Of a stretch of DNA of 12,924 nucleotides, positions 1 through 12,924 are shown in pieces. Origin of the DNA: Clavulina sp. PMI_390 (Eukaryota; Basidiomycota; Agaricomycetes; Cantharellales; Hydnaceae); NCBI GenBank assembly GCA_015039315.1, contig WIDE01000224.1, forward strand, positions 1 through 12,924, given 5' to 3'. The notes under the pieces are model-generated. The model was not told where the DNA came from. It worked only from the letters and a program-made list of their open reading frames with translations, and did no database searches. The first letter of the stretch is position 1. Each line of letters begins with the position of its first letter. Both the position numbers and the translations under genes were made by a program.

Positions 1-870
1 CCTCAATACGTAGATGATGGCTTTTGGGCATATTACATTGAAGGAGACTATTTAGTGGTTCATGATGGCAGATCTATTACTTTATGGAACTGGAGAGAAG
101 ACAAGATCTGCAACATTGAGGACGATCGCGATGAATGGGTGCGAGATTAGTTTTCTCTACGCTCACTCCATGTACTTATCCTCCTTGGCCAGGCTGACGG
201 CTCGGATTTCTCAATTGCCACCAGCCCACCATACATATTTATCTTCCCTCGTCGGGATAGACGAATATTTGTCGTCGAGATTGGTCCGCTGTATCCTGCG
301 GGCAGCTCTGCCTCCCTCGACCCAACCCGCCCGGTTTCCAAGTTCTTGTACCAGTTTTTGAATGACGGTCAAGGTATTGGGACCTCTAACGTTTATATAA
401 TGGATAGATGGAAGCCCCAATCTCATCGTTCCGAGAAAGTGATTCTTCGTTTAACTCCCGAGCCAGGGACTGTTGGATCTTTCGACGGGCCATTCTGCAT
501 GGTTTCCCTCAGTCCAACCGATGCAGCCGTTCCCATACCTCTCTACACGAAAGGGTCATGGTTGGAGAGCGATTACAACGAGACATTGACGCCTATAAAC
601 GGTGTTGGAGTTGTGCACTTGTTTCCGGCGGCCTGGGTTGGTGACAGGGTGCCTCTTGTCACTGAATTCTATCGTTTTTCTGAGAGTGGAGGTCTGGTTG
701 CTCCAGTTAGACGGGAATTCGAGAATGTATTCCTGAAGGGAGGGGACCGGATGAAGCTTTGTTTCGTGTCAGGCACAGCGCTACTGGAAAGGAGAATGGC
801 GGGTCCGGAACTATATACCCAGAAGGCCGAGATTCTCTCATTCGATTTCCAGGATGCAGAAAATCTGTAA
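1..870 (+). CDS. F-box-family-like protein, C-terminal part (5' end outside window)
   Basis: Reading frame 1 is open from the window edge to TAG at 148-150 and again from 151 to the stop at 868-870. Its early part contains LVVHDG and SITLWNWRED, a pattern I associate with the C-terminal beta-rich region of many Agaricomycete F-box proteins; the F-box itself would lie upstream and is not visible. The best gene model joins 1..138 and 193..870, removing a 54-nt intron that starts GTGCGA and ends GGCCAG, has a CTCAC branch-like site, keeps frame and removes the TAG. It leaves 271 visible residues. The alternative is that the TAG is a true nonsense mutation, because the skipped segment also reads like protein (HVLILLGQ). 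The downstream half (YIFIFPRR, IFVVEIG) looks coding in either model. The gene converges on secreted gene A. It is not an obvious relative of the F-box genes on the other strand. Family assignment is tentative. Confidence 0.55.
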
Positions 871-1227
871 CCGCAATGATTACTCGATGATACGGGAGTG
901 AAATATAGTACAAAGCTTCTTCAAATGATAGTAACAGCTTATCACTTATACTTAGTATTCCATGAAATTACGTCCCTCACAGAACTCGTCACAGCGATGG
1001 TGCAATTATCTCCTTCCCAGGCCAAGAGTCTGATAAGTCCAATACGCCACGTTTCGTGAAGAGCAACTCAAGCATCAATGAAATACAATAGATTCTATGA
1101 ATATCATCCCTAAAGGGAGTATCATTGGCAGTATTCTAGGAGAGTCAAGTATGAGATGCGGCACACCGGTTCACATAGAGCTTGACGCGCGAGAGCTAGC
1201 AACTCAAAGCAGCCGAATATCTATCCA
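871..1227. other. Convergent intergenic spacer
   Basis: This 357-bp spacer lies between the stop of the plus-strand F-box-like gene and the stop of secreted gene A on the minus strand. It should hold both 3' untranslated regions. It is AT-rich in its first part. I see no convincing polyadenylation hexamer, repeat or conserved ORF. The open frame on the plus strand from 1097 is mostly antisense to the last exon of secreted gene A. Confidence 0.6.
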
Positions 1228-2373
1228 CTATGGGGCAACGAAAAAGGCCCCGGCGCCCAGTAACACCGCGGCTGCAGCTGTGATCAATGGTAGAACCTCA
1301 AAACTGACACCTATCGTCCCGCTGCTCATCGAGCTTGTCGCAGTGCCAGTTGACGCGGCGAGCGTATTGGTAGCAACGATGATGCCCGCTGGCTTTGTTG
1401 CATCTGTCACAGTAATAAAAACAAGGATAATTACATCCGAGTGAATAATTCGGAGGCACATTCCAGTATCGTCGGGGAGAAGAGACACTCACTGACGCTT
1501 TTCATTCCGCAGATACTATCAAAAGCAGTATCCACAGCTAGAGTCAGGTTTCCCAGTTGAGGTCGCACGATAGCATACGCGCCCTGAGCACACGAGTCGC
1601 AAGCGAGTGCCTTTTGAAGGGTTGTGTTCATCAGGAGGTCAGACGTGGCAGGGATGATGGTGCTTGTGGTGAGGTTTGTCTTGAGACTACATTCCAAGGC
1701 GGTGAGAGCCTCGACGACGCAGTGTTGGTCATTTTGATTCACGCTGTGGGAGTAAGGAGAGCGAGACGATAGGGAGTGAAATAGTGTATATGAAGGAGAT
1801 GCGACCAGGGAGCTCGTCAACGACGGTTGAAGGAGAGCTGGTGGACGTACTTACTCTCGCGTACACAGAGCGCCGCCGCCTACATCAAACCATCTCGCCA
1901 AGAAGCCGGGGAGAGACTGGACAACGGTACTAGGCACGCCATTTGTAATCATATCCGCGCCGCAAGAATTTGTGATTTTCTGTCCCAGATCCAGCACTGA
2001 GGCATTTGTGCACCGACCTGAAGGCGTGAGGCCTGTGAAGTTGGTGCAAAATCCGTCGAGAAAATTGTCTACGGCTGTTATGATCGATTCGTTGGGCTCA
2101 AGGCCCGCAAACTGAAAGAGGCCGCCGATGTAGACACAACTGCCTTCAGGGCTGAGGGCTAGGTCAGCAATGGTAGAGGTGCAGTTTGGGGAGATTGTGA
2201 CGCTGAACCCACGGAAAAGGGAACGTAGGACGGAGAGAGCGGTGAGGAAGTAGATCAGGCCTGATGAAAGCATAATAATAGTGTTGACGATGAGCTTGCC
2301 TGGCCCCGAAAGATGTTGTATCGAAAACAGATCGAGCCCAAAGCCAGGTGGCGATAGCGTTGATAGCGACCAT
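1228..2373 (-). CDS. Secreted cysteine-rich protein A, probable GPI anchor
   Basis: Four exons: 2300..2373, 1855..2202, 1493..1743 and 1228..1403 (849 nt, 282 residues). Introns are 97, 111 and 89 nt; the first is GC-AG (GCAAGC), the others GTAAGT and GTGAGT. The model was fixed by comparison with copy B, whose first three exons have the same lengths. Residues 1-24 are the signal peptide region, but it is poor here, with FDTT in place of a hydrophobic core. The ectodomain has 11 cysteines, including a CDSC pair, and about eight N-glycosylation sequons (for example NFT, NAS, NLT). A Ser/Thr/Ala stretch (ASTGTATSSMSS) leads to a hydrophobic C-terminus (LITAAAAVLLGAGAFF), as expected for a GPI-anchoring signal. 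Inferred location: cell surface or wall; function unknown. It resembles a family of fungal secreted proteins whose name I cannot confirm. It is the last gene of the left block. Confidence 0.75.
2203..2299 (-). other. GC-AG intron 1 of secreted gene A
   Basis: The donor reads GCCAG then GCAAGC, and the acceptor is GGTTCAG. The matching intron of copy B (7283..7375) reads CTAG then GTAAGA and ends GGTTTAG. Both exons keep phase 2 across the junction and give S(V/I)TISPNC directly after the signal peptide region. GC-AG introns are a known minor class that is normally spliced, so this is probably functional, but a T-to-C donor mutation that weakens splicing is also possible. Confidence 0.7.
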
Positions 2374-2839
2374 AAGAGTGTTGTAATAAGGTATGAGGAT
2401 GGAATAGATGTAATGTGTGATAGAGATATATGGTGGTAAGAGGTAGAGCAGGAGGTGCAGAGAATTGTGTTCGGGGATGGCGGTGGTGTCAGATGTACAC
2501 AACAGTCAACGTGATGGTTCGAGGTGGCAAGTGTCCAGGAGAGGCTGCCAGCGGTGCTCCGTGGGAAGGATCGCTTGATAGTATTTCTTGAGTAGAAAAC
2601 GTCCAATGAAAACCGGTATGTTGCGGTCTACATGGTTCGACCTGTCGTCGGCGACCGCGAAAATTCTTTGTCTTGCAATAGTTTTGTAGTAGATTTTAGG
2701 GGAGATGATCTGATATTCATATACCTATATAAGCTGATATGGCAGAATCATCAATCAGTGGAAAGCTATGAATGAGATATACGGCAGGGGCTTACTGTCG
2801 AACATCGAACATATCTCCCAAGATAACTGGAGGGTATGT
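2374..2839. other. Spacer: promoter of secreted A and 3' flank of membrane A
   Basis: On the minus strand, the roughly 90 nt upstream of the secreted A start are CT-rich and contain CCATATATCTC, a possible TATA-like element. A block at 2488-2511, read on the plus strand as GTCAGATGTACACAACAGTC followed by AACG, recurs at 7561-7584 at almost the same distance from the start of copy B (115 and 112 nt). There is no canonical CACGTG here, only ACGTTGAC. An ATG-led open frame over this spacer and intron 1 is considered chance. Confidence 0.5.
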
Positions 2840-3938
2840 TCAGATCTGAATTTTGTACTCTCCAGCTGGTGGTGGAGTGTATCCAGACTTCTGGATCATG
2901 GGTGGGAGGAGCGTGTGCGATATGACGACGGCAAGGGAGGCAACAACAAAATGACCAATAAGGGACGCCACGAGATCCTTGACTTGGGCAGTGATGATCC
3001 CCTTCAGAGTTTGAACCAGCAGCGTCACGAATGTCGTTACGGCGTGTCGAGCGAGGTCTTGCACAGCTAAGTGATAATGCATATGCATGGGTGAGTGACA
3101 CAAACTCATCCACCGACTTTGGTGCTTTCAACTTACTGTTCCAAATGAACATGGCAAGTTGAACGAGTGGCAAACGTAGGGTTTCGGCTCTCTGCCATAT
3201 CGGCGAAGGAAGAGATGGCGGGGGTTGGACGGCTGCCATTATCTGAGGGTTCGCCGACTTCTCGCCTAATGTTGTCATTGACGCTTGGCTATCGTCGGGC
3301 GGGACTAGAGCGCCAGATGAGCTACTAGGGCGATAAAGATTCTCATGCAGATACCACTGCAGTACCATCGGGCGTACTGGACGGACGAGGCTGAGTGTAT
3401 ATTGTCTGCGAAGACAAAATGACATCGGGATCAGCAAGTGGGCTGGTGAGTAACCGTGCTAGGAAGATGTCACAAGAGTAATCGGGAACTTACAGAGAGA
3501 AGCCCCAAAGAAACGCAAATCTGATAATGATGGGTAATAGACTCGTCGGTGGCGAGAGGCGACGTGCGAGAAGCTCAGCGATAGGATAAGCGAGTCCGAG
3601 AAGGATAGTGACGACGTCGTAGAGGGTGATATTGAGTGGTACAAGGTGGGGAACTGGTGACCTGTAGATGTGATATAAAGGCATTAGGTCAATGGTGGTT
3701 ACAGAATCATCCTGAATGCAGTCGTGGATGCGTACAATGGTTTCGAAATAGTATCAGTCAAAGGAGTCATCGAGACTCCTTGACTAGGGAGGTTCAATGC
3801 GTTGTGAGGACCCAGATGTTGCTACTATCAGACATCATCGACGAGGGATAAAGAGAGTATGACGGTGGCGTACTCTGGGTTTGCTGTTGACTGGGATGGG
3901 ATTGCCTGCATCCCTAGCGAAGTAGTCTCAAGGCTCAT
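2840..3938 (-). CDS. Multi-pass membrane protein A, unknown function
   Basis: Five exons: 3874..3938, 3736..3783, 3494..3661, 3137..3405 and 2840..3066 (777 nt, 258 residues). Introns are 90, 74, 88 and 70 nt with donors GTACGC, GTACGC, GTAAGT and GTAAGT. Copy B gives the same five exon lengths, which is the main support for this model. The N-terminus (about 1-46) is polar and Ser/Pro/Thr-rich (PSQSTANP, MTPLTDTISKP). Hydrophobic segments lie at about 47-69 (VVTILLGLAYPIAELL), 79-101 (LLPIIIRFAFLWGFSL), 173-204 and 215-240 (LIGHFVVASLAVVISHTLL), so three or four membrane passes are likely. A polar, proline-rich loop (about 119-165) separates the second and third. The tail YTPPP-GEYKIQI is conserved between copies. 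I recognise no enzyme motif or transporter family. A CACGTG site lies 115 nt upstream of this start, matching the spacing of neighbouring genes and supporting the upstream ATG. Confidence 0.72.
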
Positions 3939-4232: not shown

Positions 4233-5549
4233 TCACTGGTTGGGGAACATAATGAGTCGCTCGTTATATTGACACCTCTGCGCATCCACCATCCATTTTT
4301 CCTCTACCTTGTCCGCACGAAAACGAAGAGCATGCTTGATGCATGAATCCGAGCTAGCATGCTCATGTCTACTGCCGCAATCAATCCATACACGCTCCAG
4401 AGATAACGCCGAGCTGAAAGGCTCCGCGTCAAGGAACGATTTGAGAGCCTCTGTGTTGATCTCGATGGCCTCTACGTCCCATGGGACGCTGTTCGGATCC
4501 ATAGTGATGAAGCACGCAAAATCGGCGTGGTAGAGCACAATGTGCAGAAATTTCAGCGACGGAAACGAGCGTAGAAGGACATCATTTTGGAGAAACATAA
4601 GGAGGTAGTGTGTATCAAACCCAGAGTCCCCCTGGTAATCGAGCCTGACGAATATTTCGAGGGCTTCAACAGTGGGATGGGCAATACTCTCGAGTAAGCT
4701 GTCGGGCTCATCGGCCATATACTCAGTGTTATAGGACAAGCTAAGAGCCTTAAGTCCTTGACACTTCCGAGCGACATCTCCCAGCGCAATTGCGTTGTGC
4801 TCCCTGAGGCGGGCTTGATTGTGAATGAATGTGGTAAGTCCAGCAGCCCCAGCTCCACGCGATACCGATGCCAGGAGGTTGGTGTCTCCATATAGGGCTG
4901 TGACACGTGAGAGAGCTCCAGATCCAGTATCGACATCCGGCGTCTCGGGGGAGAACCTGTCAACTGAGCCAGTCCGAATCCCCACGATATTAGGCCACGC
5001 TTCGAGGAATGGAACGAGGCGGGATGGAGGACCTAGGTAACGCAAAGTGGATAGTGTGTCCCTGAGGGGAGCAGAGAGGAGCACGGAGCTTATCTCTTGA
5101 AGTGATGATTGATCGAAAGGGGAAGGGCTTTCGAAATCTAGCTCTAGTCTTTGTAGCCCACTCAATAAAGCGAAGGCTCTTTGGACTCGAGCCCAGAACG
5201 ACGCAGGATCCTCTGGTTCGGAGGGGATAACGCGCCATCTATCTTCCGATGGACTTGAAAGGTCATATATCGTGATTGAAAGAGACCTGACCGATGCCGC
5301 TCGTTGCGGAGAGTCCAACAAGAAGCTAGAGAAATGGGAGAGACGCTCTCCTGAGACCTCATTATTTGTTGGCGACAGCCTGATGCTCGTCCACATATAG
5401 TGAGACGCATCGTGATGGAACGCGGCGCAGCAAAGCGAATATCTTTTGAGATCATCAAGGTCTAGATGTGAGGTGATTTCGGTTCTGAGCTCGGGTAGGA
5501 AATGTTTAGAGAACTTGGTGATTGCACGACGATTGGTGGTGGAGTCCAT
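4233..5549 (-). CDS. F-box protein A with leucine-rich-repeat-like C-terminus
   Basis: A single exon of 438 residues. An F-box-like motif occupies about residues 18-58: it opens LPELRTEITSHL and continues DLKRYSLCCAAFHHDA and MW. F-box proteins link substrates to SCF (Skp1-cullin) ubiquitin ligases. The rest contains irregular leucine-rich segments (LQRLELDF, LSTLRYLG, LKALSLSY, LKFLHIVLYH, LERVWIDCG) that would form a curved substrate-binding surface, as in other fungal F-box/LRR proteins. The substrate is unknown. F-box B is co-linear over the whole length (438 against 437 residues), and F-box C is a more distant relative. The start is set by alignment of MDSTTN with MNSTSN in copy B. A CACGTG lies 122 nt upstream, and CAAAAATACC is a weak TATA-like element about 45 nt upstream. 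Large alternative frames inside the gene are shadows. Confidence 0.85.
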   Translation of the reverse strand: MDSTTNRRAITKFSKHFLPELRTEITSHLDLDDLKRYSLCCAAFHHDASHYMWTSIRLSPTNNEVSGERLSHFSSFLLDSPQRAASVRSLSITIYDLSSPSEDRWRVIPSEPEDPASFWARVQRAFALLSGLQRLELDFESPSPFDQSSLQEISSVLLSAPLRDTLSTLRYLGPPSRLVPFLEAWPNIVGIRTGSVDRFSPETPDVDTGSGALSRVTALYGDTNLLASVSRGAGAAGLTTFIHNQARLREHNAIALGDVARKCQGLKALSLSYNTEYMADEPDSLLESIAHPTVEALEIFVRLDYQGDSGFDTHYLLMFLQNDVLLRSFPSLKFLHIVLYHADFACFITMDPNSVPWDVEAIEINTEALKSFLDAEPFSSALSLERVWIDCGSRHEHASSDSCIKHALRFRADKVEEKWMVDAQRCQYNERLIMFPNQ

Positions 5550-5680: not shown

Positions 5681-7449
5681 TCAGACCACCGAAACTGGCC
5701 TTGGTGCAAGCGCGATATTGATGATTGTCCTAAGTCCTCGCGTCTCTATGCCGAGAGGGACATAATCTCGCATATATAAAGGTTTCCACAATATATTGAT
5801 ACTGAAACATATCTCGTCATCCAGGAAACGTAACAAATCGCTGATTGTAATTGCATACATGTGCATCGACCGTCCAATTTTTTTCCACCTTGTCTGCGCA
5901 AAAGGGAGAGCATTTCCAGTGAAAGACTCCCAAAAAAGGCGGAATTTTGGGAGGCCACAGTCAAACCACAAGCGATTCAGTGGTAGCACCGAGCTGTTGA
6001 GTGCTGCATCAAGAAAATCTTTCAACTCACGTAAATTCAGCTTGACGGCGTCTATGTCGTATGAGAGGGTGTTAGGCTCCATCGTAATTAAACCTGCGAA
6101 GTTGTTGTGAAACAGCAGGACATGTAGAGTTTTGAGCGATGGGAGGGATCGAAGTAAGACGTTGTCCTGCAGAAACATAAGCAGGTAATGCATATGGAAA
6201 TTTTGGTCCGGATCCTCAAACGATACGGATAATTCGATGGTTTCGAGCGTTGGGTGCGCAATCATCTCGAACAAATGGTTAGGCTGCCCAAACCTGTACT
6301 CCGTAACGTAAGAGAAGTTGAGATTCTTGAGGCACTGGCACTTTCGAGCCAGATCTCCAATTTTAAGCGCCACATCGTCCCTTATGTAAGATTGGCTGAG
6401 GATAAAAGTGGCAATGACGTTTGCTGCGCTGCCAATAGAGCTCGTAACAGTCCCAGTTGACGCAGCGAGGCTGTTGGTGGCGACAATGATACCCGCTGGC
6501 TTCGTCGTATCTATCATAGCACATTAGTGAGGCTATTTATGTAGATTTAGGTGGGATAATGAAATGCTCACTAGCGACCTTTGTTCCACATATATCTTCA
6601 TATTCGGTATCCGCCACGACAGTAAGATTCCCCAGCTGTGGTCGCACAAGAGCATACGCGTTCTGTGCACACGAGTTACATGCCAGTGCATTTTGAAGCG
6701 TCGTGTTTATCAGCAGGTCGGATGTGGCAGGCATGATAGTGCTTGTTGTGAGGTTTGTCTTGAGACTGCACTCGAGGGCAGTGAGAGCTTCGACGACACA
6801 GTGTTGGTCGTTCTCATTTTCACTGTGAGAGAAAGGAGAAGAGGATAATCAGGAGAGGATATTGTGTAGGAAGGGAGGTGTGATCGATGAGCTTGTCAGT
6901 GACAAGTGAAGAAAGGCTCGTCCCTCATACTCACTCCCGCGTACATAGAGCCTCTCCACCGACATTAAACCATCTCACCAAGAAGTTGGGGAGAGACTGA
7001 ACCGCGGCGCTCGGCACGCCATTAGTAATCATGTCTGCGCCACAGGAGTCTATGATTCTCTGTCCCAGATCGAGCACTGAGGCATTTGTGCACCGACCCG
7101 AAGTTGTTAGGCCTGTAAAGTTCGTACAGAAACCGTCCAGGAAGTTGTCAACTGGTGTTATGATGGAATCGTTGACCCCGAGGCCGCCAAACTGTATGAG
7201 GCCGCCGATATAGAGACAATTGCCCTCAGGGCTAAGGGCTAGGTCAGCAATGGCAGATGTGCAATTCGGGGAGATAGTGATGCTAAACCCGTAGGAAGGA
7301 GAGATAAAGAGGCGAGAATTGCGAGGAAGTGTATCAGACATGATGAGACCGTGATATGGTCGGCGGTGATCTTACCTAGCTGCCAAAGATGCAACACTGA
7401 CGATCGATCGAGGCCAGAGCGAGGTGGCGATGGTCGTGATAGCGACCAT
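5681..7449 (-). CDS. Chimeric gene: secreted cysteine-rich protein B fused to F-box D tail
   Basis: Four exons: 7376..7449, 6935..7282, 6572..6822 and 5681..6510 (1503 nt, 500 residues); introns 93, 112 and 61 nt with donors GTAAGA, GTGAGT and GTGAGC. Exons 1-3 match secreted A in length and sequence. The signal peptide is better than in A (residues 1-24, SIVSVASLAA before SITISPNC), followed by the same cysteine-rich ectodomain with sequons. Exon 4 starts like A (TTKPAGIIVATNSLAASTG) but near residue 250 leaves that homology and continues in frame as an F-box-type tail (IATFIL, GDLARKCQCLKNLNFSY, HYLLMFLQ, RLWFDCG). The GPI-type hydrophobic end is lost and no F-box is present. From about residue 429 the frame is shifted relative to the F-box relatives by a 1-nt deletion. 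If made, the protein would enter the secretory pathway carrying a repeat-like domain that evolved for the cytosol or nucleus. It may be a new gene or a decaying fusion. Confidence 0.62.
5817..6434 (-). pseudogene. 5'-truncated C-type F-box gene remnant (D)
   Basis: This stretch aligns with the C-terminal 200 or so residues of F-box A, B and C. It lacks the first half, including the F-box (about 237 residues by comparison with A). Its 3' end is most like F-box C (shared GGAAACGTAACAAAT near the stop; LKNL-FSY and LETIE-SVS in the protein). Near 5899 one nucleotide is missing: TGTCTGCGC-AAAAG here against TGTCCGCACGAAAAC in A. In the ancestral frame the end would fall at 5817-5819, as judged from the matching ends of A and C. 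Its position directly upstream of F-box A equals that of F-box C relative to F-box B. It is now read as the tail of the chimeric gene. Confidence 0.7.
7283..7375 (-). other. GT-AG intron 1 of secreted B, with degenerate hydrophobic frame
   Basis: The donor is CTAG then GTAAGATC, and the acceptor GGTTTAG. Unspliced, the region carries a hydrophobic reading frame that could be mistaken for a signal peptide, as in copy A. In B that frame lacks an in-frame ATG and does not join the ectodomain frame, which shows it is intronic. Confidence 0.7.
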
Positions 7450-7911
7450 AAGCGTGTCAAGATAGTGGATTCAGACAAGATAGACGTGTTGTACGGTGTA
7501 AGTGGGTAGAGAAAGGTAAAGCAGGAAGCGTAGATGAATGTATGCGGGAAGGCGGGAGGTGTCAGATGTACACAAGAGTCAACGTAACAGATCAAGGCGG
7601 CAAATAACGATACGACCCTGGCAGAAGAGGTATACGATCTATGTGATTGATCGCTTGGCGTTATTCCAGCGGAGGATCGAATCATGAAAGCGGATAGGCC
7701 GAAGCCAACATTGGTTCATGTTTGCGGTGGCTGCAAATTCTTCTCGCCTCTCAACAGCCCTATGGCCGATCCGGAGGGAGAGAGAGCCGTACATTCATAT
7801 GTATTCATAGGATATGACCTAGCAATGTAAAATTCATTCGTGAGTCTAGGGCTCGAATGGAGTGAGGGAGGGACTCCTGTCGAACAACGAACATCTCCGC
7901 AAACGAAGTGT
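7450..7911. other. Spacer: promoter of secreted B and 3' flank of membrane B
   Basis: This is the duplicate of 2374-2839 and nearly the same length (462 against 466 bp). It is CT-rich on the minus strand just upstream of the start at 7449. The block at 7561-7584, sharing GTCAGATGTACACAA with copy A, is the most conserved stretch I could see by eye. There is no canonical CACGTG. Sequence beyond about 7690 differs more from copy A. No gene was recognised. Confidence 0.5.
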
Positions 7912-9010
7912 TCAGATCTGAATTTTGTACTCTCCCTCAGGTGGTGGAGTGTACCCGGACTTCTGGATCATGGGTGGGAGGAGCGTGTGCGAGATGACAA
8001 CGGCAAGGGAGGCGACAACAAAATGACCAATAAGGGACGCCACAAGATCCTTGACCTGAGCAGTGATGATCCCCTTCAGAGTCTGTACTAGCAGTGTCAC
8101 GAATGTCGTGATGGCGTGTCGGGCGAGATCTTGCACAACTATATGAGAATGCGTATGCTCGTGTGAGTGTCACAAACCCAAAATAGACTTTGGTGCAATC
8201 AACTCACTATTCCAAATGAATAGGGCAAGTTGGGTGAGTGGCAAACGTAGGGATTCGGCTTTCTGCCAGATCGGCGACGGAAGAGATGGTGGCGGTTGGA
8301 CGACCGCCATCGTCTGAGGATTAGCCAACTTCTCGTCCAATGCTGCTGGTGACGCCTGGCTATCGCTAAGCGCGACCAGAGAGCCGGATGGACTACTAGG
8401 CCGATACAAATTCTCATGTAAATACCACTGCAGCACCATTGGGCGTACTGGACGGACGAGGCTAAGTGCATATTGTCTGCGAAGACAAAACGACATTTGG
8501 ATCAGCAAGTGGGTCGATAAATAGCTGTGCCAGCAATACAGTAGGCCTTGCAGCCGCCAAAACTTACAGAGAGAATCCCCAGAAGAACGCGAATCTGATC
8601 ATGATGGGCAATATACTCGCTGAGGGCAAGAGGCGCCGTGCGAGAAGCTCAGCGATAGGATAAGCGAGTCCGAGAAGGATAGTGACGACGTCATAGAAGG
8701 TGACCTTGAGTAGAACAAGGTGGGGAGCTGGTAACCTGTAGATGTGACGCAGAGACATTATGTCAATGGTGATTGCAAAACCCTTCGGAGTGTGGGTTGT
8801 GGATGGCACACAATGGATTCGGAGTAATATCAGCCAAAGGAGGCGTTGACACCGCTTGACTAGGAGGGTTCGAGGTATCGTGAGGACCCAGAGGTTGATA
8901 GCATCAGACATGTCGCCGAGGGCTGAAGAATGTGTGGTGGCGTACTCTGGGTGTGCTGTTGACTGGGAAGGGATTGCCTGTAGCCCAAGCGAAGCGGTCT
9001 CAACGCTCAT
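7912..9010 (-). CDS. Multi-pass membrane protein B, unknown function
   Basis: Five exons: 8946..9010, 8812..8859, 8568..8735, 8208..8476 and 7912..8138 (777 nt, 258 residues), each with the same length as in copy A. Introns are 86, 76, 91 and 69 nt with donors GTACGC, GTGTGC, GTAAGT and GTGAGT, so intron lengths drifted while exons did not. The polar N-terminus (MSVETASLGLQAIPSQ, then STPPLADITPNP) is followed by the same three or four hydrophobic segments, a proline-rich loop (QPPPSLPSPIW) and the tail YTPPPEGEYKIQI. An unspliced reading gives a long frame starting at 9151, but its extra residues are not conserved in copy A, where that frame is interrupted. A CACGTG lies 115 nt upstream of 9010, and CAAATATACG is a TATA-like box about 30 nt upstream. 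Function is unknown; association with the secreted gene next to it is only positional. Confidence 0.72.
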
Positions 9011-9317: not shown

Positions 9318-10631
9318 TCAATCAGGAATTGTAACGAGTCGCTCGTTGTATTGACACCTCCGCGCATCCACCATCCATTCTTCATCTACTCTGTCCGCAC
9401 GAAAACGAAGAGCATGGTTAACGCAATACTCCGAGCGAGTATGCTCGTGTCGACTCCCGCAGTCAATCCACACACGCTTCAGGGATAATGCAGAGCTGAA
9501 CGGCTCTGCGTCAAGGAACGATTTGAGAGCCTCTGTGTTAATCTCTATGGCCTCCACATCCCAAGGGACGCTGTTCGGATCCGTAGTGATGAAGCACCCA
9601 AAGTCTGCGTGGGAGAGCACAATGTGCAAAAATGTCAGGGACGGGAACGAGCGCAATAGCACATCGTTCTGGAGAAACATGAGGAGGTAGTGCGTATCGA
9701 ATCCTGAGTCGCCTTGATAGTCAAGCCTGACAAATATCTCTAGGGTTTCAATGGCTGGATGGGCAATACTTTCTAGTAAGGTGTTGGGCTCATCGTCCAT
9801 ATACTCGGTGTTGTAGGACAAGCTAAGAGCCTTCATTCCTTGGCACTTCCGAGTGACATCTCCGAGCACAATTGCGTTGTGCTCCCTCAGGCGGGCTTGA
9901 TTGTGAATGAACGTGGTAAGTCCGACAGCCCCAGCTCCACGAGATACGGATGCGAGGAGATTCGTGTCCCCATATAACTCTCTAATACGTGAGAGGGCTC
10001 CAGATCGGGTATCAACATCCGGCGTCTCCGGGGAGAACCTTTCCACTGAGCCAGTGCGAAGCCCCGTGATGTTGGGCCAGGCTTCGAGAAACGGAATGAG
10101 GCGGGATGGAGGACCCAGGTACCGCAATGTGGATAGCGTATCCGTGAAAGGAGCGGAAAGGAGTACAGAGCTTATCTCCTGAAGTGATGCTTGATCAAAC
10201 GGGGAGGGGCTTTCGAAATCTAGCTCCAGTCTTTGTAGTCCACTCAATGAGGCGAACGCTATTTGGACTTGAGCCCATAATGATGTAAAATCATCTGGTT
10301 CAGAGGGGATGATGCACCATCTATCTTCCGATGGGCTGGAAGGGTCGTATACAGTGATCAAAAGAGATCTGATTGATGCCGCTCGTGGCGGAGAATTCAG
10401 CAAGAAGCTGGAGAAATCAGAGAGACGCTCTCCCAAGACCTCATTGGTCGTGGGCGACAGTCTGATATTCGTCCACATATGGCGAGCCGCATCGTGACGA
10501 AAGGCGGCACAGCAAAGGGAATATCTTTTTAGGTCATCAAGAGCGAGGTGTGAGGTGATTTCGGTTCTGAGCTCGGGGAGAAAATGTTTAGAGAACTTGG
10601 CGACTGGAAGCCGATTGGAGGTGGAGTTCAT
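9318..10631 (-). CDS. F-box protein B with leucine-rich-repeat-like C-terminus
   Basis: A single exon of 437 residues, the direct duplicate of F-box A. The F-box-like motif (LPELRTEITSHLALDDL, then YSLCCAAFRHDA) lies at about residues 18-58. The same irregular leucine-rich segments follow (LQRLELDF, LSTLRYLG, MKALSLSY, LTFLHIVLSH, LKRVWIDCG). Substitutions relative to A are scattered, with no stop or frameshift, suggesting both copies were kept under selection; the rates would have to be measured. An ATG at 10682 would add 17 residues, but it lies upstream of the TATA-like box and has no counterpart in A or C, so 10631 is preferred. CATATAAATC lies about 35-40 nt upstream of the start and a CACGTG 122 nt upstream. 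The likely role is an SCF ubiquitin ligase substrate adaptor; the substrate is unknown. Confidence 0.85.
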   Translation of the reverse strand: MNSTSNRLPVAKFSKHFLPELRTEITSHLALDDLKRYSLCCAAFRHDAARHMWTNIRLSPTTNEVLGERLSDFSSFLLNSPPRAASIRSLLITVYDPSSPSEDRWCIIPSEPDDFTSLWAQVQIAFASLSGLQRLELDFESPSPFDQASLQEISSVLLSAPFTDTLSTLRYLGPPSRLIPFLEAWPNITGLRTGSVERFSPETPDVDTRSGALSRIRELYGDTNLLASVSRGAGAVGLTTFIHNQARLREHNAIVLGDVTRKCQGMKALSLSYNTEYMDDEPNTLLESIAHPAIETLEIFVRLDYQGDSGFDTHYLLMFLQNDVLLRSFPSLTFLHIVLSHADFGCFITTDPNSVPWDVEAIEINTEALKSFLDAEPFSSALSLKRVWIDCGSRHEHTRSEYCVNHALRFRADRVDEEWMVDARRCQYNERLVTIPD

Positions 10632-11228: not shown

Positions 11229-12509
11229 TCATTGAGGAAACGTAACAAATTCCTCAGTGCAATTGCACCTACGTGCATCCACCTCCCACTCTTTTCCCGC
11301 CTTCTCCGCGCGAAATCGGAGAGCGTGGTTACTACATGATCCTGAAGGGGTGTGCATATGTGGGCGTGCGCAGTCAATCCATAGCCTCTCCAGTGATTGT
11401 GCAGAACAAATGAATTCCGCATCAAGGAAGCTTTTAAACTCACTCATGTCCAGCTCGATGGGATTCGCATCCGAATCGAGAAATCTCTCGAAATCGTCAT
11501 GGAATAGCAGAATGTGTAGAAATTTGAGGGAAGGGAGGATTCGGGTAGGGGCGTCATCTCGCAGAAGCATTAACAGGTCGTGCACATAGGGACCATAGTC
11601 TGAATGACCGAGGCTTACGGATATTTCGATGGTTTCGAGCGATGGGTGTGCAATAGTCTCGAATAAATAGTGGGGCTCCCCAGAAATGCAGTTTGTGCAA
11701 TAAGAGAAGCTGAGGTTCTTGAGGCCCTCACACATCCGAACCATGTCCCCCAGTGAAAATACTGCATCTTCTCTCAAATAGTCTTGACCATGGATATAAG
11801 TGGTAAGTCTGGCTGCTCCATCTCCTTGAGCTATGAAGCTAAGTAGAGTTAAGTCTCCCACAACAGTTGTGACGCGTGCTAGCGCGCTCGACGGGATATT
11901 AATATCTGGGGGGCTATAGGGATAAGGCTCAATGGTACGAGCGTGGAGCAATGAAATATCGGGCCAACCCTCAAGGAGGGGGACAAAATGGGATACTGAA
12001 CCGCTGTACCGTAACGTAGACAGCGTGCTCTTGAAGGGAGCGGAGAGGAGCGCAAAGACCATCTCATCAAGGGACATCAAAGGGATAGAAGGGCACCGAA
12101 AGTCTAGCTTTACTTTTTGGACAGCATTGAGCAAACCAAGGGCCGTTCGGAATCGAACCCATAGCTCCGTGTGATTTTCGGATATGGGAGGGATTGTATA
12201 ACATCTGATTGGTCCTAGGTAGGAGCATGCAATGATCGTTAGTGATCTAATCAGTGCCGCTCGCGCGGGGGACTCCAGCAGGAAGCTGGCAAAATTAGAG
12301 AGACACTTCTCAGGGGTATTTCTGGGCATCGGTGTAAGCCAAACACGCCTCCACATGTATCGGCTTGCATCACGATGGAATGCGGTGCAGCAAAGCGAAT
12401 ATGATTTCAAATCGTGAAGAGGTAGATGCGAGGCAACCTCAACCCTGAGCTCGGGGAGAAAGCGCCTGGAGAACGTGGTGATTACAAGTTGATCTTCCGT
12501 GGACGTCAT
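11229..12509 (-). CDS. F-box protein C (C-type) with leucine-rich-repeat-like C-terminus
   Basis: A single exon of 426 residues. The F-box-like motif is at about residues 18-58 (LPELRVEVASHLPLHDL, then YSLCCTAFHRDA and MW). The leucine-rich-like body follows (VQKVKLDF, LSTLRYSG, LKNLSFSY, LKFLHILLFH, LERLWIDCA). It is clearly homologous to F-box A and B but diverged through the middle, with several short gaps. It is the intact relative of remnant D. The start MTSTEDQ aligns with the starts of A and B; CATATAATTC lies about 35 nt upstream and a CACGTG 111 nt upstream. Its 3' flank is separated from F-box B by the MITE. The role is inferred as a substrate adaptor of an SCF ubiquitin ligase. Confidence 0.83.
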   Translation of the reverse strand: MTSTEDQLVITTFSRRFLPELRVEVASHLPLHDLKSYSLCCTAFHRDASRYMWRRVWLTPMPRNTPEKCLSNFASFLLESPARAALIRSLTIIACSYLGPIRCYTIPPISENHTELWVRFRTALGLLNAVQKVKLDFRCPSIPLMSLDEMVFALLSAPFKSTLSTLRYSGSVSHFVPLLEGWPDISLLHARTIEPYPYSPPDINIPSSALARVTTVVGDLTLLSFIAQGDGAARLTTYIHGQDYLREDAVFSLGDMVRMCEGLKNLSFSYCTNCISGEPHYLFETIAHPSLETIEISVSLGHSDYGPYVHDLLMLLRDDAPTRILPSLKFLHILLFHDDFERFLDSDANPIELDMSEFKSFLDAEFICSAQSLERLWIDCARPHMHTPSGSCSNHALRFRAEKAGKEWEVDARRCNCTEEFVTFPQ

Positions 12510-12827
12510 ATAAGTCTCAATTCCCTGCGACTGTGGATTGAATTATATGACAGAGTTATCTCTAACAATGGGTGCAGAACGATGGGGAAGATGGGAAGCA
12601 AACGCTGCCGCAAGTGTGGCACGTGATCACTTGCAAGGTTTCTTTTCGGCTTGCCACTGCCAACCAAATTGTAATCAACATGCCAAAATGGGCCGCAGAA
12701 ACAAAAATAATCCATCGCACTATTGTGAGCAATAATGATGAGATGCTATCTCGAAATCCGTTACATTGTGAGAGGAGTCAGTTCGTGAAGGTCCACGCAA
12801 TATGGTTTTTGCCTCAGGCATCCCTCC
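12510..12827. other. Spacer: promoter of F-box C and 3' flank of next secreted-type gene
   Basis: The part next to F-box C has a TATA-like TTATAT (12543-12548 on the plus strand) and GCACGTGATCAC (12619-12630). The rest is featureless and AT-rich. The small open frames crossing it are not supported by any copy. It shows the spacing expected between a secreted-type gene and the F-box gene that follows it. Confidence 0.5.
12620..12625. promoter_or_regulatory. CACGTG E-box upstream of F-box C
   Basis: The context is GGCACGTGATCAC, 111 nt upstream of the ATG at 12509. The surrounding DNA is not visibly similar to the promoters of A and B, so keeping the motif and its distance suggests function. 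GTGATCAC next to it is a second palindrome. Confidence 0.5.
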
Positions 12828-12924
12828 TTAGTCAATGATAATCATCGTGACGCCCACTGCCCCAATCGCCACGACCAGGGCCATGACAGCGCCTTCCAAT
12901 GAAAGTGCGCTCCGGACTAGTAGG
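12828..12924 (-). CDS. Hydrophobic C-terminus of a possible third secreted-type protein (partial)
   Basis: On the minus strand one frame is open from the window edge to TAA at 12828-12830, giving 31 residues. Of these, EGAVMALVVAIGAVGVTMII is a hydrophobic tail like the GPI-type end of secreted A (LITAAAAVLLGAGAFF). It lies upstream of a C-type F-box gene, where a further secreted gene would be expected if the block is repeated. The sequence is too short to prove the family; a chance open frame or a membrane anchor of another protein cannot be excluded. Confidence 0.42.
   Translation of the reverse strand, partial: LLVRSALSLEGAVMALVVAIGAVGVTMIIID

Follow-up and report, generated by a model that had tools for sequence, protein, structure and literature searches.

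A putative in-frame chimera of a cysteine-rich secreted-type gene and an F-box/LRR-type gene in a tandem array of Clavulina sp. PMI_390

Chimeric genes generated by tandem duplication followed by deletion constitute a general class. Another point of reference is provided by the FBXL-type F-box/LRR proteins, among them the F-box protein D3 of rice (with ASK1, PDB 5hyw). Here we describe a gene from the basidiomycete Clavulina sp. PMI_390 in which the beginning of a cysteine-rich secreted-type (Sec) gene runs into the end of an F-box/LRR-type gene, and we discuss its structure, probable origin and likely fate. A literature search that included PMC7550596 and PMC6634985 returned no paper on this locus; the term Clavulina is absent from the main text of PMC7550596, where JGI genomes are described as assembled from Illumina reads with ALLPATHS-LG, from PacBio reads, or from both.

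The window, that is the whole stretch of DNA analysed, corresponds to the entire contig C138 (12,924 bp) in a genome of 39.4 Mb and 301 contigs; this contig measures 26,578 bp in the source listing, of which the analysis spans about half. Contigs C138, C114 and C97 are all shorter in the analysed sequence than in the source listing, and runs of N open seven contigs (C97, C114, C115, C137, C140, C142 and C155). Two NCBI entries for proteins of the window are assigned to Clavulina sp. PMI_390 (Hydnaceae, Cantharellales). From the left in plus-strand coordinates, the minus strand carries SecA, a membrane-protein gene, FbA, the chimera, a second membrane-protein gene, FbB and FbC (Table 1). The array comprises a left and a right block, tandem copies of each other at a spacing of 5.07-5.08 kb. 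Only two sets of membrane-protein and F-box genes were found in the genome search, every genome match of the membrane-protein gene falls within the window contig, and its hand-joined product has no Pfam match. The plus-strand gene at the left edge is a member of a larger family, of which C156 carries several copies and C45 two.

Table 1. Coordinates of the features discussed (positions in the window unless a contig is named)
Feature	Position	Strand	Description
Plus-strand gene	1-870	+	left edge of window
SecA	1228..2373	-	intact relative, GPI-type end, 282 aa; NCBI protein P0002
Membrane-protein gene, left copy	about 2837-3720		tandem copy
FbA	4233..5549	-	F-box/LRR-type gene, left unit; NCBI-scaffold protein P0006 inside
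Chimera exon 4 (spliced model)	5681..6510	-	
Out-of-frame chimera end	5681..5899	-	residues 429-500 + stop; family alignment
F-box/LRR-type tail, family frame	5900..6433	-	residues 251-428; family match; groups with FbC
P0001 55-nt intron	6167..6221	-	GTTTGA..TGCAG; conserved coding stretch in FbA, FbB
Fusion junction	6419..6433	-	GGCAGCGCAGCAAAC; compared with SecA, SecX, FbC, FbA, FbB
Chimera exon 4 linker, Sec type	6434..6510	-	Ser/Thr; 57/72 identical to SecA exon 4
37-nt identity	6489..6525	-	end of intron 3 + start of exon 4; = C156:23390-23426; possible assembly branch point
Chimera exon 3	6572..6822	-	cysteine-rich ectodomain; 193/251 identical to SecA
Chimera exon 2	6935..7282	-	cysteine-rich ectodomain; 285/348 identical to SecA
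Chimera exon 1	7376..7449	-	MVAITTIATSLWPRSIVSVASLAA-; weak to moderate signal-like start; 74 nt
Membrane-protein gene, right unit	7909..8762	-	tandem copy
FbB	9318..10631	-	right-unit counterpart of FbA
FbC	11229..12509	-	sister of chimera tail
Plus-strand gene family copies	C156 about 11044-14148 and 18780-19600		sequence match

The spliced model of the chimera consists of four exons separated by GT-AG introns and encodes 500 residues. The initial annotation had matched exons 1 to 3 to SecA in length and sequence, and this is borne out: lengths of 74, 348 and 251 nt are common to the chimera (whose Sec part is hereafter SecB), SecA and the paralogues on C114 and C97, and the nucleotide identity of SecB to SecA, given for exons 2 to 4 in Table 1, amounts to 53/74 in exon 1. 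Exon 2 is found at four places in the genome search. The cysteine-rich glycosylated ectodomain proposed at the outset is likewise supported by 11 cysteines and seven N-glycosylation motifs in exons 1 to 3, positioned as in SecA. The signal peptide, initially qualified as good, is present as a signal-like start of only moderate strength; its best 10-residue hydropathy mean, the sole measure used, is 2.01 and lies after Pro-Arg. An earlier candidate, the loss of the SecB start codon with a frameshift in the signal region, was dropped because the stretch proved to be intron 1 and all four paralogues have the 74-nt exon 1. SecA intron 1 is of the GC-AG type (GC donor; 2300-2373) and that of SecB has GT, the exon length being kept in both. 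At its other end, the chimera has indeed lost the GPI-type terminus: the best 14-residue hydropathy within the C-terminal 30 residues is 1.54, versus 2.06-2.33 in SecA, C114, C97 and SecX, a Sec exon 4 located on C156. The chimera thus carries the exon lengths and the 11 cysteines of the Sec family and lacks its hydrophobic C-terminus. The identity of the exon 4 linker to SecA resembles that of exon 3, and the linker therefore looks native to SecB.

The Sec family (P0001-P0004) is an orphan cysteine-rich family: a profile search of limited reach, with 7996 candidates scored, retrieved four proteins, all from Clavulina sp. PMI_390. P0003 is the C114 model, and P0004 is a different model of the C97 gene. 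Pfam gave nothing usable for the family, a weak match to a reovirus model (E 0.61) being taken as chance, and a predicted structure of SecA from a four-row alignment (pLDDT 35.8) was left unused.

Within exon 4, the Sec linker switches in frame to the C-terminal half of an F-box/LRR-type protein, as first proposed for positions 6425-6440; comparison with the relatives places the switch at 6419-6433. Beyond it, the tail is identical to FbA at 86/178 residues, to FbB at 82/178 and to FbC at 77/171, and the genome-search matches of exon 4 to FbA (E 1.5e-49), FbB (5.2e-46) and FbC (1.6e-40) are far beyond chance. This family frame ends at residue 428. The remainder of the product, residues 429-500, is not F-box-like, and the C-terminus of the family lies in another frame, reading FCADKVEKNWTVDAHVCNYNQRFVTFPG and then a stop. 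The tail has undergone a net one-base shift near 5900 relative to the F-box family, so that the C-terminal hairpin of the family is lost from the chimera. The F-box/LRR-like tail announced initially therefore holds for residues 251-428 and fails for residues 429-500. A join of this kind has about a one-in-three chance of being in frame, and since the frame past it is that of the F-box gene itself, its openness is inherited. The F-box has been lost, as had been suggested: Pfam finds no such domain in the chimera or in its exon 4, and the front half of the F-box gene is missing.

In trees of eight sequences over 159 codons, the tail groups with FbC with a support of 99 (DNA) and 91 (protein), although plain identity puts it slightly nearer FbA. 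The neutral distance between the tail and FbC (0.90) is similar to that between SecA and SecB (0.82), as would be the case had both pairs arisen in one duplication; that between FbA and FbB is lower (0.49). In view of this grouping, the tail appears to be what remains of the F-box 2 gene of the left unit (FbD) and, the membrane-protein gene being confined to the window contig, the simplest layout is two four-gene units. Relatives of the FbA/FbC kind that score above E 1e-60 or sit in the window contig are limited to the tail and the genes FbA, FbB and FbC; the next-best relative, on C124, is 38% identical (E 2.9e-58). An F-box profile search of proteins, of limited reach, returned two, one of them the FbA of the window. 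The Pfam F-box match is below the cut-off in FbC (E 0.0053) and FbA (0.023), with none in FbB. The AlphaFold model of FbC (pLDDT 70.3, pTM 0.74) displays F-box-type helices, at a confidence below 50, followed by an LRR-like solenoid, and its best PDB match is 5hyw_A (E 7.0e-06, TM-score 0.38). On this model the junction corresponds to residue 229, and the match stays in frame up to residue 399, hence the loss of the hairpin 395-416; about five strands would be retained. The sequence match of the tail and the predicted fold of FbC raise the possibility that the chimera keeps the C-terminal half of an LRR-type solenoid, with its alternating strands and helices.

In a codon model using six of the eight tree sequences, the tail branch has an omega of 0.97 against 0.18 elsewhere (LRT p 0.0023), and the fit is no worse with omega=1. 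Within 1.92 log units the admissible range extends from about 0.34 to more than 4, which leaves room for positive selection on the tail. The branch of FbC is also raised (omega 0.57, p 0.07), and the dN/dS contrast is therefore not unique to the tail. For exons 1 to 3, with four sequences, SecB has an omega of 0.41 to 0.63 according to the model and omega=1 is not rejected (p 0.67), whereas it is rejected for SecA (p 0.0038); the Sec outgroups are distant, which makes this split weak, and a low omega (0.16) is obtained when SecA and SecB are compared pairwise. The out-of-frame end and the tail omega hint at a pseudogene, yet the 178 tail codons contain no stop, an outcome seen in 3.5% of 1000 runs of a neutral simulation over the whole estimated branch (P 0.035). 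Constraint before the fusion followed by relaxation afterwards fits both the raised omega and the stop-free tail.

The assembly offers a possible branch point close to the fusion. Contig C156 (23,426 bp) terminates within SecX, whose GPI-type end is intact, and over its final 37 nt the contig is identical to the end of intron 3 and the start of exon 4 of the chimera. An exact pattern search finds this 37-mer at two places in the genome; past it, SecX and the chimera share 40/60 positions. When 24 contig ends (seven of them N) were compared with part of the genome sequence, only that of C156 overlapped anything. SecX can be read in three ways: it may be a third Sec gene bearing either an artefact at the contig end or a tract of recent conversion; SecB exons 1 to 3 may be common to two alleles or copies; or the window may contain a wrong join. 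Exons 1 to 3 may belong to the chimeric end, to the intact C156 end, or to both, and because of the branch at 6489 their cis arrangement with the tail is putative. A gene labelled protein-kinase-like from its sequence (L010, about 1200-2260) lies on C156 between a plus-strand-gene copy and SecX, and has many weaker relatives in the genome.

The NCBI model P0001 of the chimera gene, with 341 residues, takes as its start the ATG at 7341, which falls in intron 1, is spliced within the tail at 6221/6167 and stops at 6088. It is reproduced exactly from the window sequence, but it skips an exon 1 of equal length in four paralogues, relies on a GTTTGA donor and cuts out a stretch that FbA and FbB conserve as coding sequence; read-through of this doubtful intron is to be preferred on sequence grounds, and expression in the form predicted by NCBI appears very improbable. 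An assembly or haplotype effect carries more weight, while still being unlikely: the true continuation of SecB exons 1 to 3, whether in a single nucleus or in every one, would be the intact 3' end found on C156, the window having joined these exons at the 37 nt to another piece made of a Sec linker and the F-box tail. C156 stops exactly at these 37 nt and diverges afterwards, an identity very improbable between such distant paralogues (3e-7 from local identity, 5e-5 from SecX/SecA identity). Exons 1 to 3 for SecX were found nowhere beyond the four known places, in either the genome DNA search or the exon 2 search; a 78% copy of the plus-strand gene of the window lies to the left of the Sec end on C156; and the two membrane-protein and F-box sets would make two complete units if the C156 end were that of SecB. 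Against it, the paralogues on C114 and C97 have no membrane-protein or F-box neighbours in the stretches read, so that the C156 gene may be a solitary third Sec gene, and searches for near-identical second copies of window 1-900, 12700-12924 or C156:20500-23219, which can miss copies, found none. Moreover, the join between linker and tail lies in gap-free sequence at least 55 nt from the branch, in a linker that is Sec-like and as near SecA as SecB exon 3 is; a fusion consequently exists under each reading of SecX unless the join itself is an artefact.

The initial annotation had balanced a newly formed extracellular repeat protein against a neutral by-product left by a deletion; the chimera itself stands, and it is the second option that gains. 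A working protein, in which the SecB ectodomain, freed of its anchor, would display a short LRR-like tail outside the cell, is improbable in our estimation. Its 500-residue frame is open with intact splice sites, its ectodomain keeps the cysteines and glycosylation motifs, and an omega above 1 on the stop-free tail is compatible with the data. This reading is weakened by the out-of-frame end, by an omega raised on the tail and indistinguishable from 1 there and in the SecB exons, and by the NCBI prediction, which has no signal-like start and omits exon 1 and most of the tail; the start of the spliced model is itself only moderately signal-like, and no other Sec::F-box fusion appeared in protein searches of about 8000 candidates each. 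Bolder, and very improbable, would be a gene in birth, where positive selection reshapes a cytosolic LRR tail for display on an anchor-free, glycosylated, cysteine-rich ectodomain while an intact copy with the same exon 4 start may persist on C156 as the other form. As far as the assembled sequence goes, the in-frame fusion is real, and we consider it rather probable that it was formed as a deletion by-product in a tandem array and is now decaying. In favour of this explanation stand the tandem copies, the grouping of the tail with FbC, the confinement of the membrane-protein gene to this contig, the neutral distances, the Sec-like linker, the raised tail omega, the failure of SecB to reject omega=1 and the one-base shift with its lost hairpin. 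The absence of stops (P 0.035), the admissible tail omega of up to more than 4, the raised FbC branch, the low pairwise SecA/SecB omega, the slightly closer plain identity of the tail to FbA and the branch at 6489 all argue against it.

According to the decaying-fusion reading, about four genes (Sec, membrane protein, F-box 1 and F-box 2) would have undergone tandem duplication as one block. We infer that a later deletion removed the front half of FbD and the 3' end of the right-unit Sec gene, along with the spacer, and that FbD and Sec were joined in frame within exon 4 at a short run of bases common to both (GCAGC). The product, if transcribed, would have neither F-box nor GPI-type end, with about half of an LRR-type solenoid and a broken last hairpin; it would probably be misfolded and degraded, or released without function. 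As a new protein, the chimera is of little importance unless expression is shown. The fusion is instructive as a still legible case of unrelated genes being spliced in frame by tandem duplication and deletion and, if reads were to establish both the chimeric 3' end in the window and the intact one on C156, they would represent the states before and after within one fungus.

The chimera resembles the Sec family of Clavulina sp. PMI_390 in exons 1 to 3, cysteines and glycosylation motifs, and differs from SecA, C114, C97 and SecX by the lack of a hydrophobic GPI-type C-terminus. Its tail derives from a gene type whose FbC model is similar to LRR proteins such as rice D3-ASK1; compared with FBXL-type F-box/LRR proteins, however, the TM-score is only 0.38, the Pfam F-box match of FbC is below the cut-off, and the chimera is devoid of the F-box part. 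As in chimeras formed by tandem duplication and deletion, two neighbouring tandem paralogues appear fused in frame at a short shared run of bases, but here one part belongs to a secreted family and the other to an F-box/LRR family, and the end is already out of frame.
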